Below are positions 4,672 through 14,588 of a DNA stretch of 37,285 nt, in pieces. The stretch spans positions 1 to 37,285 of the forward strand of contig NZ_DATIND010000078.1 in the NCBI RefSeq assembly GCF_035474595.1. Direction: 5' to 3'. The notes under the pieces were generated by a model that did no database searches, was not told where the DNA came from, and saw only the letters and a list, made by a program, of their open reading frames with translations. Both the position numbers and the translations under genes were made by a program. Every line of letters begins with the position of its first letter. Positions within the stretch are counted from its first letter, which is position 1. Origin of the DNA: Longimicrobium sp. GTDB taxonomy: Bacteria > Gemmatimonadota > Gemmatimonadetes > Longimicrobiales > Longimicrobiaceae.

Positions 4672-5004
4672 ATGCTCATCGTCGAAACGCCGGTGTTCAC
4701 GCGGCAGGTGCTGGCCGCCCTTTCCGACGACGACTACCGCGGGCTGCAGCTGGCGCTGGTCATGAACCCCGAGCGCGGCGTGGTCATCCGCGGGTCGGGC
4801 GGGCTGCGCAAGGTGCGGTGGGGCGCCGAAGGGCGCGGCAAGCGCGGTGGGGTGCGCACCATCTACTCCTACGCGCCGCGGCAGCAGGTCATCGTCATGC
4901 TGTTCCTGTTCGCCAAGAACGAGCAGGAAGATCTCACGCCCGAGCAGCTGCGCCGGCTGCGCGCGGTGGTGGAGCACGAGTTCGAAACGCGGGTGCCGGT
5001 CTGA
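4672..5004 (+). CDS. RelE/HigB-family toxin
   Basis: This 110-residue protein looks like a type II toxin of the RelE/HigB (COG4737-like) group, mRNA interferases that cleave at the ribosome. Visible family features are the N-terminal VETPVFTRQVLAALSDDDY helices, the GGLRKVRWG strand (basic core), RTIYSYA, and the VIVMLFLFAKNEQEDLTPEQ strand-helix end. The ATG at 4672 follows GGAGGCACG. The gene order toxin then antitoxin, with the antitoxin start 26 bases after the stop, matches HigBA/NadS-type modules. Activity is inferred from family and context, not shown. Confidence 0.85.
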   Translation: MLIVETPVFTRQVLAALSDDDYRGLQLALVMNPERGVVIRGSGGLRKVRWGAEGRGKRGGVRTIYSYAPRQQVIVMLFLFAKNEQEDLTPEQLRRLRAVVEHEFETRVPV

Positions 5005-5030
5005 AACGCTACGGGACCATGGGAGGGATG

Positions 5031-5402
5031 ATGAAGGAGGAGATGTTCGACGAGCTGCTCGACAGCGTCCGCCAGGGCGGCGCCATCCTGCGCGGCGATG
5101 CGCAGCCGTCCCGCGCCTTCGAGTTCCCCGAGAAGGACGGTATCCCCGACGTGGCCGCCATCCGGGAGCGGTTCGGGGTGTCGCAGGCGCGCTTCGCGGA
5201 GATGATGGGGATCAGCCTCGGCACGCTTCGCAACTGGGAGCAGGGGCGGCGCGTTCCGGAGGGGCCCGCCAACGTCCTGCTGGAGGTGGCCTACAAGGCT
5301 CCCGACGTGGTCCGCCGCGTGGTCCGCGAGCGCCGCGCCCGCTTCGGCCAGCCGCTGGATCCGGCGGAGGCAGCCGATACCGGCGGCGATCCGGAGGAGT
5401 GA
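5031..5402 (+). CDS. HTH antitoxin (HigA/NadS-like)
   Basis: The 123-residue product resembles NadS/HigA-type antitoxins: an N-terminal toxin-binding part (MKEEMFDELLDSVRQGGAIL) and an Xre-type helix-turn-helix at about residues 50-85 (RFGVSQARFAEMMGISLGTL then NWEQGRRVPEGPA). It should neutralise the upstream toxin and repress the operon through the palindrome at 4614-4645. Three closely spaced ATGs (5019, 5028, 5031) are possible; 5031 was chosen because GGGAGG at 5021-5026 is best spaced for it and homologous proteins begin MK(D/E)E. The C-terminus is a poorly conserved acidic tail. Confidence 0.87.
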   Translation: MKEEMFDELLDSVRQGGAILRGDAQPSRAFEFPEKDGIPDVAAIRERFGVSQARFAEMMGISLGTLRNWEQGRRVPEGPANVLLEVAYKAPDVVRRVVRERRARFGQPLDPAEAADTGGDPEE

Positions 5403-5568: not shown

Positions 5569-8500
5569 CTACCGCGGGTCCGACAGGTATCCCAGCGCCT
5601 TGATGCCGGGCATGAACAGGTAGGCGCCGCCGCGGACGGTGACGAAGCGCGGAAGCCTGTCCACGCGGTGGCGGACGGGGCACCGCTGCACGGTGAAGTG
5701 CGACACCTCTTCCGCGTGCGTGGCCGGGTCGGCAGGGTCGCGGTGCGGCGCGATCACCGGGTCGGGGTCGGAGTACAGCCCGTCGAACTTCATGCTGTTG
5801 ACCCAGGTGCTCTGCACGAACTCGAACTGCCGCCCGATGTCGGTGTTGAAGCAGATGAAGTGCAGCCCGCGCTCACCCGCGCCGTCGCTTGCCAGGATGT
5901 CGGCAGGGTCGTACGACGCGGCCAGCGGCGGACCGTACGCGCGGCCGCGGCGCAGCAGGCGGTGGCGGTCGGCCACCAGCAGCGACTCGGCGGGGGTGGG
6001 GCCCATTCCGTCGCGCGGGTTGGTGCGGCGGATGTGCGAGCCCAGCGGGCAGCGCTCGCCGTGCAGGTCCTTCGCGTACAGGAACGCGTTCGCCTTCGCG
6101 GCGTCGAACTCCGCCGGCTCCTGGTCGGGCGCATCCTCCAGCGGCGTGCCGTTGGGCCACCGCCCCACCATCCGCGCGGCCAGCCACTTCCGGCGCACGG
6201 CGTCGTGCCCGGCCTTCTGGTCCATGAAGCTCCAGAACGCCTTCACGTCCTGCTCCATCTGCCGGAACACCACGTAGCTCCCGTTCTTCCCCAGGTCCAG
6301 CCGCTGGCCGAGCGTGGTGTCGTACGGGTCGGGCGGGGCCGCGGGGAAGAGCTTGCGCGCGGCGTCGGTCACGGGAACGCTCGGGGTCGCCGGCATGTTC
6401 CCGTACGCGTTGGGATAGCCGAGCACGACCTCGCCCGCGGGGACCTTCGGCTCGTTGCCGGGGGCGTCAGCGTCCGCCCGCAGGCCGTCGATGCGCGGCT
6501 GCGCGATGCCGTCGTGAAAGCCGAAATGCTCCCTGTCGCCCGCCAGCATCGCGCTCCCCAGCGGCGCGCCGAAGGTGGCGCCCGCGGCGGCCGCGTGCTT
6601 CGACTCCTCGTCCAGCAGCGCGCGCAGCCCGTCCGCCGTGGCGGCGAAGAGGAAGAGCATGGCATGCACGGTGGGGTTGTGCGGCCCGCCCCACGTCCAC
6701 GTTCCCGGCGCCACCGGGCCCGTGTCGCCCAGCACGCGCTGCCGGTGCTCGCCCGTCATTCCCTCGATGAACTCGCGGCCGAAGGTGCCGAGCGTCGTCT
6801 CGTCCAGCCCCATCGCCTGCACGCCGGCGAAGGTGAGCCCCACGTTCACCGCCCGCCCCTCGCGCTCCACCTCGGCGCTCGACTTCGACGCGGGGGTGAC
6901 GCGGCCGGCGAGCGCGCCGACCCACGCCCGCGCGGCACCGGGGTTCCGCGGGTCGGCGAAGTAGACGGGAACGTAGCAGGCCTCGCCCAGCTTCTTGTAG
7001 CTGCGGGCGACCAGCCCCTGCACGTCGGCCACTTCGATGGCCGGGGAGACGACCGGCTTCTCCGCCGGCGCCGTCGGGCTCGTGGCGCTCTGCGAGCCGT
7101 CGGCGAAGCGGCGCAGCCACTCCAGCGCGGCGGGCGCGTCCATCTCCTCGTACAGCCCCAGCCGGATGCGGCTGTTGTTGTTGATGTTGCTCACCGACAG
7201 CCAGCGGTAGGCGCTGTACCACACCTGCGTGGGGATCTGGCTGTCGCGCGAGTACGCCTTGAACTGCTGCTCGTTGGTCGCGCCGCCGCCGAACAGGCCG
7301 GTGGTGCGCGGGAAGCCGACGCAGTTGCTCCACACCGCCGTCAGCCCGTTGTGCGACTTGTCGATGAAGTCGCCCAGGTAGTTGTCCCAGCTCCCGTCGA
7401 AGTTGCTGAAGAACACCAGCCGCCGCCCGCCGTCCACGATCACCCACCGCGCGAAGTGGATGGAGGGGATGCCGGCCAGGTTCCCCTGGTTGCTCAGGTA
7501 CTTCGCCGAGAGGTCGATGAACTTGAGCACCGCCCGCAGCACCAGCCCCCTGAACCAGAGCGGCCGCTTGATGTAGATGACGGAGCTCATCTCGTTCTGG
7601 ACGATGCGGTCCTCGGTGCGCACCAGGTCGGCGGTGTGCTCCTTCACGTCGCCGCTCACGATCACCGGGTCGTGCGCGGCCAGCCAGAACAGGTACCCCA
7701 CCGCGGCGCCGGCCAGCACGGCGACGGCGGCGGCGACGCCGAGCGTTCCCCAGAGCGCGGCCGCGGGCCCGAACGCCCAGCGCAGCACGCCGTACAGCGC
7801 GGCGAACACGAGCAGGACGATCGCGATGGCGGCCTGCTTCAGCATCGACGGCGGGAAGGCCGGCATGGGGTACGGGCCCGGCTTCACCGCGGTCCACTTC
7901 AGGTCCTCCTGCTCGCCGATGAAGGCCAGGATGCGCCTGCGGATCTCCAGCGGGTCGCCGGGAAAGTCCGGCTTCGCGGTCTCGGCGTCCAGGAACGCCT
8001 CCACCCGGTCGCGCAGGTGCGCCTCGCGGCGGATCTGGTCCACCGAGCGGTGCATCGTCCCCGTGTAGAAGGTGTTGGAGGCGATGCGGTGGCGCATGAA
8101 GAAGGCGTGCGCTGCCCGCCGGTCGGCATGCCCCGGCCACTCCTCGCAGTGCCCGAACACCTGGTCCAGCCCCGGCCCGGCCTCGCGCAGCAGCTCGTCG
8201 AAGTGCGCCTCCAGCGGCCCGTCGAAGTCGGTGGAGAAGAGGAGCTTGGCGGGGATCTCGGGCCCGTCGGCCTGCGGCTTTCCGTCGTACACCGGGATCG
8301 GCGCGTCCTTGGACGGCGAGGGCTGGTGCACCAGGATGCGCATGAAGTGCACGGTGCGCAGCCGCGCGAACGGGATGATGGGGTTGACCTCGATGTCCTC
8401 GCTCTCGGGCCGCGCGATGCGGTCGAGCAGTTCCAGCAGGTCCTTCATGTGGCCGGACTTGATGCGCGGCATCACCAGCAGCGACGACTGCGAGGTGCGG

Positions 8501-8730
8501 CCGTCCTTCGCCGCCGACGCGAGGTCCTCCGCGGGCGTGCGCGCGAGCGCCTGCGCCACGCGCTCGCGGCGGGCGGCGCGCTCGGCCGCGGCGCCGCGGC
8601 GGGCTTCGTCTTCCGAGACGATGGCGATGTCGAGCGGAACGAGGGGCGTGCCCGCCGGCGCATCGGACTGCGTGGCGCCGGGTGCCGGGGGCTGCTCGCC
8701 GGGTTCGGCGGGATTGGAAACGTCGCTCAT
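5569..8730 (-). CDS. Membrane-anchored DyP-type haem peroxidase fusion
   Basis: The C-terminal half (about 565-1053) is a DyP-type peroxidase: the GXXDG motif GFHDG (737-741, catalytic Asp740), the proximal haem His899 in CPLGSHIRRTNPRD, a distal Arg near 930, and GLHFICFNTDIGRQFEFVQ (955-973). DyP enzymes use H2O2 to oxidise dyes, phenols or porphyrins. The N-terminal half is unusual: two similar segments, VHFMRILVHQ...LLFSTDFDG (127-170) and IHFARWVIVDG...LVFFSNFDG (424-446), flank two predicted membrane helices (299-318, 325-352). Normal DyPs are 300-500 residues. No signal peptide is visible. Start ATG at 8730 follows AGGAGG. The fused N-terminal module may be a duplicated ferredoxin-like fold; its function is unknown. 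Confidence 0.9.
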   Translation of the reverse strand: MSDVSNPAEPGEQPPAPGATQSDAPAGTPLVPLDIAIVSEDEARRGAAAERAARRERVAQALARTPAEDLASAAKDGRTSQSSLLVMPRIKSGHMKDLLELLDRIARPESEDIEVNPIIPFARLRTVHFMRILVHQPSPSKDAPIPVYDGKPQADGPEIPAKLLFSTDFDGPLEAHFDELLREAGPGLDQVFGHCEEWPGHADRRAAHAFFMRHRIASNTFYTGTMHRSVDQIRREAHLRDRVEAFLDAETAKPDFPGDPLEIRRRILAFIGEQEDLKWTAVKPGPYPMPAFPPSMLKQAAIAIVLLVFAALYGVLRWAFGPAAALWGTLGVAAAVAVLAGAAVGYLFWLAAHDPVIVSGDVKEHTADLVRTEDRIVQNEMSSVIYIKRPLWFRGLVLRAVLKFIDLSAKYLSNQGNLAGIPSIHFARWVIVDGGRRLVFFSNFDGSWDNYLGDFIDKSHNGLTAVWSNCVGFPRTTGLFGGGATNEQQFKAYSRDSQIPTQVWYSAYRWLSVSNINNNSRIRLGLYEEMDAPAALEWLRRFADGSQSATSPTAPAEKPVVSPAIEVADVQGLVARSYKKLGEACYVPVYFADPRNPGAARAWVGALAGRVTPASKSSAEVEREGRAVNVGLTFAGVQAMGLDETTLGTFGREFIEGMTGEHRQRVLGDTGPVAPGTWTWGGPHNPTVHAMLFLFAATADGLRALLDEESKHAAAAGATFGAPLGSAMLAGDREHFGFHDGIAQPRIDGLRADADAPGNEPKVPAGEVVLGYPNAYGNMPATPSVPVTDAARKLFPAAPPDPYDTTLGQRLDLGKNGSYVVFRQMEQDVKAFWSFMDQKAGHDAVRRKWLAARMVGRWPNGTPLEDAPDQEPAEFDAAKANAFLYAKDLHGERCPLGSHIRRTNPRDGMGPTPAESLLVADRHRLLRRGRAYGPPLAASYDPADILASDGAGERGLHFICFNTDIGRQFEFVQSTWVNSMKFDGLYSDPDPVIAPHRDPADPATHAEEVSHFTVQRCPVRHRVDRLPRFVTVRGGAYLFMPGIKALGYLSDPR

Positions 8731-9183
8731 GGGATGAGCCTCCTGCGGACGGGGACGGGGGACTGGAATGAAGGGAGATGCGCGGGGCGGCGCCCGCTGA
8801 GCCTGCTGCGTGAGCCGGAACGGGCTCCGGAGATGATCCGGTGACCGGCGATGCGGCCTGGATGCGCGCGGGTGGGATGGAGATGCGCGCGCAAGATGCA
8901 TATTGCCGCAGCGGGAGCGGAAACGCCAGTCTCTCGGCCGGCGGAATCCGGTCCGCGGCGGACGCGCGGAAGCCGCATCACCCCCCGCGACGTGCTGCGC
9001 GAGGCGGGGGTCCCGCCGCTGGCGCGATGCGAATCATCCCCGACCGGAAAAGGATGGCTCGCCCGTCATCCGGCGGCTCTGCGCTCCCGCACCCGCCGCC
9101 TTGCCGGATCGTCCGCGGCCGGCGGACGAGCGGAGAAATGCCGCTCTTCGCTCGCCTCGCCCGTACCGCAGCACGTCCCGCGA
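8731..9183. other. Gap between lectin and DyP genes
   Basis: I see no gene in this 453-base stretch; its reading frames look like chance frames of GC-rich DNA. It contains an inverted repeat at 9109-9116/9122-9129 (TCGTCCGC/GCGGACGA), about 55 bases after the lectin stop, which could be a weak terminator though it lacks a T tract. The AGGAGG ribosome binding site of the DyP gene lies at its left end. Confidence 0.5.
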
Positions 9184-10917
9184 TCAGCCGTTCAGGACGT
9201 TCGCCGCCCAGTCGCCGTAGCCCATCCGCGCGCCGCCGGTGTCGAGCGTGATGTACGCGGCGGGGCTCCTGGCTTCCCAGTCGTAGCGCCAGACGGGGCT
9301 CACCACTTCGGCGGCGCTCCCGTCGGCGTAGCGCCCCCGAACGCGGCAGCGGAAGCTCCACACGCCCGCTCCGCCGGCGGAAGCGGGAACGCACGCGCTC
9401 CATCCGCTGGCGCCGGGCGACATGACGGTGGGCTGCACCTGCGCGGCGTCCTGGCCCGGCGGCGCCACGTACACCATCACGCCGCCGGGGTCCGCGGTGA
9501 TGTACGTGCTCCAGTCGCCGTTCAGGTAGAAGCAGAAGCTTCCCCGCGCGCTGGACGCCGGCGTGGGGGCAGGGGTGGTGGCGCAGGCCTCGTTGCTGAA
9601 CGGCGACACCCCGTCGCCGCCGTACGCGCGCACCCGGTAGCAGTGCGTGGACCCGGCGCCCAGATTGGCGTGGTCGAACCCGGTCCGCCCCTGCGGGAGG
9701 CGGGCAACGAGGGTGCCTCCTTCCCAGACCTCGAAGCCGGCCTCGTTGGACGCGTTGTCCTGCCAGGTAAGGTGGGTGGCGGAGTCGGAGACGGCGCTCG
9801 CCTGCAGGTTCGTGGGCGCGGCGGGGATGGCGGCGGCGGGCCCGTACCAGGTGTGCAGCAGGACCTGGCTGCCGTCTCCCGCGATGGGGCTCGGTCCGGC
9901 GCCGAGCAGGTCCAGGCGGCCCGCACCCCACGTGGTGGCGGCCGGCGTGTCGAAGAACGTCGCGACCGGCTCCGGGAGCTCGCACCAGCCGCCGGCCTGG
10001 TTGGGGTACCACCAGTGGTTGCCGTGGACCACGCCGGTGAAGTAGTCGGTGTACTCGCTGAACACGTCCAGCCGGCCCGGCGCCCAGGAAACGGCGGCCG
10101 GGGCGGAGCCGGCAAGCCCCGCGAGCATCTCCGGGCCGCCCCAGCCGTTCTGGTACCACCAGTGGTGCAGCCGCTGGTCGGTGCCGACGGCGAACACGTC
10201 CAGCCGTCCCGCGCCCCACGACACGGCGGCGGGCGCGGGCGAGGGGCGCCCCGCGGCGGGTGGCACCGGAAAGCTGCCTCCGCGCGGCTCGGGGCCCTGC
10301 CACCCGTGACCCTCGTACCACCAGTGCCAGAGCGTCCGGTCGTCGCCGGCGGCGAACACGTCCAGGCGGTTCGGTCCCCACGCCACGGCGGTCGGCGCAG
10401 ACCACACCGTTCCGGCCAGCGGCTCGGGCCCGCCCCATCCGCCATCGAACCACCAGTGCAGGATGCGGCGGTCCTCGCCCACCGCGAATACGTCCAGCCG
10501 CCCCGCGCCCCACGACACCGCGTGGGGCCGCCCCAGCCAGCCGGCCGTGTTCCCCGCCAGCTCCTCGGGTCCTCCCCACTCCGACGTCCCCGGCCTGGGA
10601 TAGTACCAGTGATACAGCCGCCGCCCCTCGCCGATGGCGAACACATCCAGCACGCCGGGCGCGCGCGAAACCGCCACCGGCGAGGTGTTCGGCGCCAGCG
10701 ACGCAGGCCATCCCGGCCCCAGGTTCTCCGGCCCGCCCCAGCCGTAGCTCGTTCCGCCGGGATACCACCAGTGCGCCAGCGTGTTGGTGCCGCTTCCGGC
10801 CAGGCCGCCGGGCATGGCCAGCGCGAACACGTCCAGCCGGCCCGGGCTCCACGCCACCGCGGCCGGCGAAACACCGTGGATGTTGCCGCCGCGCGACTGA
10901 ACCGGGTTCCAGGGCAT
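9184..10917 (-). CDS. Seven-bladed PLL-like lectin with FN3 domain
   Basis: Residues 16-360 contain seven repeats of the pattern (A/S)PxAVSWGxGRLDVFAxGxDxxLxHWWYxxGWGGPExLAG, the signature of PLL-type (Photorhabdus lectin, DUF346-like) beta-propellers that bind fucose or methylated sugars between blades. Repeats start near residues 17, 79, 131, 174, 229, 272 and 324; blades six and seven are divergent. A fibronectin type III domain follows (366-449, TNLQASAVSDSATHLTWQDN ... YRVRAYGGDGVSPFSNEA), then a C-terminal domain (457-577) I do not recognise. No signal peptide is visible at MPWNPVQSRGG. Start ATG at 10917 follows AAGGAGGAGAG. Glycan binding is inferred from the fold. Confidence 0.85.
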   Translation of the reverse strand: MPWNPVQSRGGNIHGVSPAAVAWSPGRLDVFALAMPGGLAGSGTNTLAHWWYPGGTSYGWGGPENLGPGWPASLAPNTSPVAVSRAPGVLDVFAIGEGRRLYHWYYPRPGTSEWGGPEELAGNTAGWLGRPHAVSWGAGRLDVFAVGEDRRILHWWFDGGWGGPEPLAGTVWSAPTAVAWGPNRLDVFAAGDDRTLWHWWYEGHGWQGPEPRGGSFPVPPAAGRPSPAPAAVSWGAGRLDVFAVGTDQRLHHWWYQNGWGGPEMLAGLAGSAPAAVSWAPGRLDVFSEYTDYFTGVVHGNHWWYPNQAGGWCELPEPVATFFDTPAATTWGAGRLDLLGAGPSPIAGDGSQVLLHTWYGPAAAIPAAPTNLQASAVSDSATHLTWQDNASNEAGFEVWEGGTLVARLPQGRTGFDHANLGAGSTHCYRVRAYGGDGVSPFSNEACATTPAPTPASSARGSFCFYLNGDWSTYITADPGGVMVYVAPPGQDAAQVQPTVMSPGASGWSACVPASAGGAGVWSFRCRVRGRYADGSAAEVVSPVWRYDWEARSPAAYITLDTGGARMGYGDWAANVLNG

Positions 10918-11113
10918 ACGGGCTCTCCTCCTTCCTCGGGTGGATGAGCAGCGGCGAACTCGGTGGGGAGACGCATGGGAATTCCAGGCGGAAGATGCGT
11001 GTGCGGCGGAGCGGCCCGCAATCCGTCCTCCAATCGTGGGGAAAATCGGCTCACGCGTCCGGATGCGGTGCCGCGGCGGGGGGAGATGGGCTCCACGCGA
11101 GAGATCGATCCCG

Positions 11114-11141
11114 TTGCGTGGACGGCGTGCGGATGTAGCTT
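11114..11141 (+). promoter_or_regulatory. Candidate promoter of the acetyltransferase gene
   Basis: TTGCGT (11114-11119), 16-base spacer, TAGCTT (11136-11141). The -10 hexamer is the same as that of the better promoter before the Fur-family gene. The -35 is only a 3/6 match. Confidence 0.4.
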
Positions 11142-11192
11142 CGGCGCTCGGTGAAGGCTTGCCGCACCACACGACTTCCGAACCCGCGCCGC

Positions 11193-14144: not shown

Positions 14145-14588
14145 ATGCCGACGATCGCGAGCGTCCTCCCGGAAGAAGCGGACGCGATGCTGCGCCGGGC
14201 GCTCGAGGCCCACGGCCAGCGCTTCACCGAGCAGCGCGCGGCCGTCTACCGCGTGCTGCGCGGCACCTGCGAGCACCCCACCGCCGACGAGGTCTTCACC
14301 GCCGTCCGCGGCGAGATCGCCGACATCTCCCTGGCCACCGTCTACAAGGCGCTGGAAACGCTGGTCAGCTGCAGCCTGGCGGTCAAGCTCACCTACGGCG
14401 ACGACTCGGCCCGCTACGACGCGCGCACCGACGACCACTACCACTCGCGCTGCCTGGCCTGCGGGGTGGTCCGCGACGTGGCCGCCGAGGCCACCGAGGT
14501 GCCGCACTTCGAGGTCGGCGGCGGCTTCCGCGTCGAGGGGTACCGCGTGGAGGTGGTAGGGTACTGCCCGGCGTGCGCGGGGGCCTAG
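14145..14588 (+). CDS. Fur-family transcriptional regulator
   Basis: A 147-residue member of the Fur/PerR/Zur family, metal-dependent repressors with an N-terminal winged helix and C-terminal metal/dimer domain. The DNA-binding helix is in ISLATVYKALETL (61-73), preceded by QRFTEQRAAVYRVLRG and HPTADEVF. The metal site is DDHYHSRCLAC (96-106), and the structural zinc pair is completed by CPAC (141-144). PerR-like features (short, HYH) are present, but PerR, Fur and Zur cannot be separated by eye. The TAG stop overlaps the first base of a GGGGACA tandem array. A promoter lies at 14062-14090. Confidence 0.93.
   Translation: MPTIASVLPEEADAMLRRALEAHGQRFTEQRAAVYRVLRGTCEHPTADEVFTAVRGEIADISLATVYKALETLVSCSLAVKLTYGDDSARYDARTDDHYHSRCLACGVVRDVAAEATEVPHFEVGGGFRVEGYRVEVVGYCPACAGA

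Follow-up and report, generated by a model that had tools for sequence, protein, structure and literature searches.

The window, the whole stretch of 37,285 nucleotides of Longimicrobium sp. DNA that was analysed, carries on its minus strand an open reading frame which runs from position 8730 to position 5569 and encodes 1053 amino acids. The preliminary description had reported a 1053-residue protein without giving its strand; the frame is open throughout, with no internal stop codon. A ribosome-binding sequence, AGGAGG, was read directly from the DNA 8 nt 5' of the ATG at 8730, and the coding score of 480 was the highest of all the genes called in the window. A chance open reading frame, or a wrong frame, was ruled out by this score, the AGGAGG site and the duplication within the encoded protein (E 9.7e-26). 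The features of the gene are as follows.

5569 to 8730, minus strand: the whole gene, encoding in order a tail, unit 1, a membrane hairpin, unit 2 and a DyP domain (open frame, translation, coding score, same-family loci)
8739 to 8744, minus strand: Shine-Dalgarno sequence AGGAGG (read directly)
8494 to 8730, minus strand: N-terminal tail, residues 1–79, rich in Pro, Ala and Glu (translation)
7981 to 8493, minus strand: unit 1, residues 80–250, predicted ferredoxin-like, with conserved H128 (strand 2) and D170 (model, duplication, conservation)
7675 to 7851, minus strand: predicted membrane hairpin, helices 294–320 and 322–352 (hydropathy and model helices)
7096 to 7617, minus strand: unit 2, residues 372–545, predicted ferredoxin-like (duplication, model, conservation)
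5572 to 7050, minus strand: DyP peroxidase domain, residues 561–1053 (TIGR01413, phmmer against the PDB, fold match to 8RE2)
6508 to 6522, minus strand: GXXDG motif, here GFHDG, residues 737–741, with catalytic D740 (G737 and D740 identical in 43 of 43 DyP rows)
6034 to 6036, minus strand: H899, expected proximal haem ligand (conserved in 43 of 43)
5950 to 5952, minus strand: R927, expected distal Arg (conserved in 43 of 43)

Directly downstream of the DyP gene, on the opposite strand, Pfam identified a RelE-like toxin and an Xre-type helix–turn–helix antitoxin pair (4672–5402, plus strand). A gene for a Fur-family regulator (14145–14588, plus strand) lies ∼5.4 kb away from the gene for the haem protein.

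The N-terminal half of the protein contains two related units, the first marked by HFMR (residues 128–131) followed by LLFSTDFDG, and the second by HFARW (residues 425–429) followed by LVFFSNFDG. Two copies of such a HF(M/A)R...FDG unit had been described previously, and a profile–profile comparison of unit 1 with unit 2 (E 9.7e-26, probability 99.7, 146 columns) bears this out; judged from their sequences, the units are true duplicates, far beyond chance. A hydropathy scan of the protein found hydrophobic stretches only between them, at residues 291–323 and 320–353 with a peak mean hydropathy above 2.1, and none in the tail (residues 1–79). The same stretches were modelled as helices 294–320 and 322–352, in agreement with the pair of membrane helices noted before.

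Residues 80–550 were modelled with AlphaFold2 from an alignment with 80 relatives (pLDDT 92.2, pTM 0.90). DSSP analysis of the model gave a ferredoxin-like fold for each unit. The model was compared with solved structures using Foldseek and VIA-align. The top match was WhiE-ORFI (Z 15.4 over 222 residues, covering both units), followed by the decarboxylase Abx(+)O (Z 11.2) and by tandem monooxygenase-like barrels (Z ∼10), while single ABM, IsdG and mutarotase barrels ranked lower. As the best matches span both units, the two together most likely form one alpha+beta barrel, the pairing being inferred from the match to WhiE-ORFI; for the same reason, a separate DyP-like or Cld-like barrel for each unit is not favoured. 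Structure prediction and a Foldseek comparison were among the checks that the preliminary description had proposed, and both the ferredoxin-like fold and the duplication withstood them. It had also suggested that the units could belong to the superfamily of DyP and chlorite dismutase. ABM, IsdG, Cld, DyP, EfeB and others do belong to one superfamily (PMC4835899), and the match to WhiE-ORFI upholds that assignment. The modelled fold, however, supports tandem ABM/SchA-like barrels as the nearest relatives, rather than DyP, EfeB or Cld, and one joint barrel in place of two. DyP and Cld were absent among the fold matches of the N-terminal module, which in itself excludes nothing.

No Pfam match was found for the N-terminal part and no NCBIfam match above cut-off for the units, which are therefore filed by fold and not in a named ABM family. 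Weak profile matches to ERD4, a plant channel (E 0.04), and to TagF (E 0.05–0.13) were treated as noise. Haem binding by the units has not been shown.

The C-terminal part is a complete DyP domain, as had been claimed. It scored 105.5 bits with TIGR01413 (E 3.2e-30) against a curated cut-off of 100.5, and in a phmmer search of the PDB the solved structures closest in sequence were DrDyP and DyP2. The modelled residues 562–1053 superimposed on DrDyP (8RE2) with Z 41.9 and an rmsd of 2.7 over 436 residues. The catalytic residues are intact, D740, H899 and R927 being identical in 43 of the 43 DyP rows compared; haem binding and peroxidase activity are inferred only. H899 is presumed to be the proximal haem ligand from the general DyP literature, and R927 is taken to be the distal Arg from its spacing from H899, by analogy with fungal DyPs. 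A model of residues 80–1053 (pLDDT 91.1, pTM 0.90) suggests that the DyP holds a fixed position against the barrel, with the reservation that only a global pTM was available and that the alignment contained fused sequences.

Relatives of the two-unit module were sought in 84,980 genomes, which yielded 443; the best 80, from at least 12 phyla, were analysed. In unit 2, H425, W429, N443, Y451 and R495 were identical in 81 of 81 sequences. The stretches IHF[AV]RW and FDG had doubled as search patterns, so that their conservation is partly built in; H128 of unit 1 lies outside the patterns and was kept in 78 of 81. The hairpin was present in nearly all two-unit relatives, a segment above the hydropathy threshold being absent in 4 of 80. 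With these exceptions, and with most single-unit proteins seemingly soluble, membrane anchoring is not universal.

The strong conservation of polar residues (H128, D170, H425, N443, D445 and R495) leaves it possible, though somewhat doubtful, that the two units form an enzyme in their own right, either a cofactor-free monooxygenase or decarboxylase of the ABM type or one with haem or metal in its cavity held by the strand-2 His, and that the DyP carries out an adjacent step on the same substrate. Among the best fold matches are a polyketide decarboxylase and several ABM monooxygenases, and siroheme decarboxylase, a member of the same superfamily, holds its ligand inside the barrel via a strand-2 His (PMC4835899); H128 and H425 are likewise on strand 2. 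However, ABM proteins can be non-catalytic (PMC6689052), the conserved positions have not been mapped to the barrel cavity, and the single-unit partners of DrDyP-type peroxidases keep the His but lack the Trp.

A partnership between the barrel and the DyP is well supported by gene order. The scan query was the two-unit alignment only and the loci were picked without reference to DyP, so the linkage was not built in. Among the best 80 of the 443 loci a DyP directly followed the module on the same strand in 79, seven of them in one open reading frame; in the remaining locus the contig ends at the module. The estimated gap was 50 nt or less in 65 of the 72 pairs in which the two-unit and DyP genes are separate. 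Six other genomes of the same family of Gemmatimonadota contain the two-unit module: three have complete fusions, one runs into the DyP until the contig ends, one has module and DyP in adjacent frames and one has separate genes (L032). A membrane-tethered multi-barrel haem enzyme had been called unusual beforehand; this holds for the full fusion, which is rare, but not for its parts, which occur widely as operons of two or three genes.

Single units show the same association. In loci L038–L043 and L045 the DyP is preceded by one single-unit gene or by two separate ones. In Deinococcus radiodurans the coding sequence of the 243-amino-acid hypothetical protein WP_051618841.1 stops one base short of the DrDyP gene. 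This protein matched the profile of unit 1 with E 1e-22 and that of unit 2 with E 7e-16, values obtained on a set of eight test proteins. In a plasmid collection, a unit was found near the DyP in 42 of 42 records with a DyP at least 33% identical to DrDyP, mostly within ∼1 kb and at most ∼2 kb away, as judged from match positions compared by eye and from profile checks of L131, L135 and L143. No unit was found near three more distant DyPs in the same collection (L141, L142 and L144). Separate units (L041, L134), a two-unit gene (L047), the full fusion of the window and proteins of the order P450–unit–unit–DyP (L126, L127, L128) can be arranged in a series that reads, on sequence comparison, as step-wise fusion, and this was counted for the partnership.

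Several of these loci had further peculiarities. Fusions from Myxococcota (L066, L068, L074, L080) have an extra unidentified part of ∼340 residues after the DyP, and in L127 and L119 an insertion of ∼55 to 105 residues divides the DyP, which therefore gives two profile matches. A conserved protein of 250–340 residues follows the DyP in single-unit operons (L043, 5406–6422; L045, 4936–5940; L039, 4619–5371) and had no Pfam match above cut-off.

Neighbouring families were taken from Pfam tallies, de novo clustering of open reading frames having been dropped when it was swamped by shadow frames. P450 genes were present in 30 of the 80 two-unit loci (the best 80 of 443) and also adjoined the fused genes in five relatives from Gemmatimonadota. 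A divergent P450 gene stands just upstream of the fusion in relatives from the same family (L027, L028, L029, L030 and L031); the corresponding place in the window (8731–11172) is filled by a gene with DUF346, FG-GAP and fn3 repeats (9184–11172, minus strand). No P450 was found among the open reading frames of the 37 kb window, either as a neighbour or in the same chain, nor was a close one found in the whole genome, where the best match was only 30% identical. In Pararhizobium qamdonense, Novosphingobium aromaticivorans and Sulfitobacter pontiacus a single chain contains, in this order, a P450, a unit, the hairpin, another unit and a DyP; DyP–P450 fusions are present in L040, L110 and L113. 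The tallies further contained glutathione transferase, catalase, caleosin and patatin, and no lipoxygenase was seen among them. A Methylorubrum populi locus has in a row an FAD oxidoreductase, a P450, a catalase-family protein, a unit and a DyP.

It was considered whether the neighbouring P450s are peroxide-driven, in the manner of CYP152 or CYP74. This was not supported: the I-helix Asp or Glu was kept in 34 of 42, with Pro in seven. Since they mostly have the usual acid–alcohol pair, they give no specific indication of peroxide-driven lipid chemistry. In the P450s fused to a DyP or a unit (L040, L110, L113, L126, L127, L128), unlike most stand-alone neighbours, the I-helix acid is replaced by Pro. 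The setting overall is that of an oxidative pathway rich in haem, one component of which is in the membrane. That the substrate is lipophilic is a reasonable but unproven guess, inferred from the neighbours alone; what DyPs act on in nature is itself an open question.

Of the systems compared, DrDyP (8RE2/8RE3, PMC10820274) is the solved DyP closest to the window domain in both sequence and fold. Its gene lies directly behind that of WP_051618841.1 and before a catalase-family gene, and the enzyme was studied without the unit neighbour. It differs from the window protein in not being fused, in having one unit with no hairpin visible by eye in the unit sequence, and in having Met at position five of GXXDG, where the window has GFHDG. 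WhiE-ORFI, of the SchA/CurD type (9LMN), and Abx(+)O (9LTX) resemble the window protein in having two ferredoxin-like domains in one chain that form one barrel, but they are polyketide pathway proteins without a DyP and only ∼11% identical in sequence. Neither is known to have a membrane hairpin separating its two halves. Fungal dioxygenase–P450 fusions (PMC13049297) join a peroxidase-like haem domain and a P450 in one chain, as do L126–L128, L040, L110 and L113; as described there, they belong to another peroxidase family and have no ABM barrel, and the window has no P450.

PitA of Haloferax volcanii (PMC5746218), like the window protein, fuses a haem barrel of the Cld/DyP group to an ABM-like barrel. 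It contains ChdC and not DyP, has the reverse domain order, a His-rich linker and no membrane hairpin, and serves haem synthesis; with a C-terminal DyP as its haem domain, the window protein does not qualify as a PitA-like ChdC–ABM protein. Protoheme was found in the ABM-like part of PitA, for which a role as haem carrier or store has been proposed (PMC5746218), and a similar role, loading the neighbouring DyP (and P450), could be envisaged for the present barrel: the neighbours are also haem enzymes and the strand-2 His is conserved in both units. We consider this unlikely, as other DyPs take up haem without such a partner and the haem His of IsdG and PitA types is on a helix and not on strand 2 (PMC4835899, PMC5746218). 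That the units are merely a scaffold, which ties the DyP to the vicinity of the membrane and leaves catalysis unaffected, would fit the hairpin seen in almost every two-unit relative and the predicted rigid docking but is improbable, given that partner conservation exceeds the needs of an anchor and that single units stay beside DyP with the same strictness although no hairpin is evident in them.

The reading we prefer, with a probability of roughly 60%, is that the window protein represents, in one chain, a haem-oxidase complex that is widespread in bacteria and docked on the membrane; its barrel would bind the DyP and either activate it or feed it a lipophilic substrate. Its domain make-up, duplication and fold, the operon and fusion linkage and the intact DyP catalytic residues were established by computation. 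The two units would fold into one ABM-superfamily barrel, which the helical hairpin would fix to the membrane, most likely at the cytoplasmic face, a topology that is inferred. This barrel would dock rigidly on a DyP of the long type (DrDyP, AauDyP, DyP2), as predicted by the model (pTM 0.90), and would be a dedicated, probably obligate, partner of that clade. It would thereby place the peroxidase at the membrane and either feed it lipophilic substrate or peroxide or switch its haem to the active state; activation, delivery and lipid substrate alike are inferences with no experiment behind them. In many genomes a P450 or catalase-family protein may share the pathway. The lack of a P450 within the 37 kb of the window counts against the complex.

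Each fold involved is known, as is a soluble fusion of a Cld-type haem barrel with an ABM-like domain (PitA, PMC5746218). Neither the libraries searched nor the open-licence papers contained the ABM–hairpin–ABM–DyP architecture, the unnamed unit family or its tight association with a single DyP clade, and no paper on the barrel–DyP pairing was found in the open-access literature, subscription journals being outside the search.

At pH 7.5, DrDyP purified by itself is inactive, with its haem six-coordinate and low-spin, and the authors of that study raise the question of what might activate it (PMC10820274). The low activity hints at a missing partner but is suggestive only, and may instead be explained by an acidic optimum. 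Such pH optima are common among DyPs. The broad form of the hypothesis, that the clade including DrDyP works only in complex with a membrane-docking, activating ABM-type barrel, that together with P450 and catalase-family enzymes it forms a haem-oxidase system at the bacterial membrane surface which acts on lipophilic substrates, and that the poor activity of DrDyP reflects the missing partner, is tentative and less likely than not. These data identify an undescribed protein family and link DyPs to P450s and catalase-family enzymes. The barrel is probably the missing working partner of DrDyP-type peroxidases, and a conserved, unnamed protein whose gene, in many phyla, adjoins the gene of a DyP of this clade or is fused to it is a concrete candidate for the trigger of DrDyP activation.
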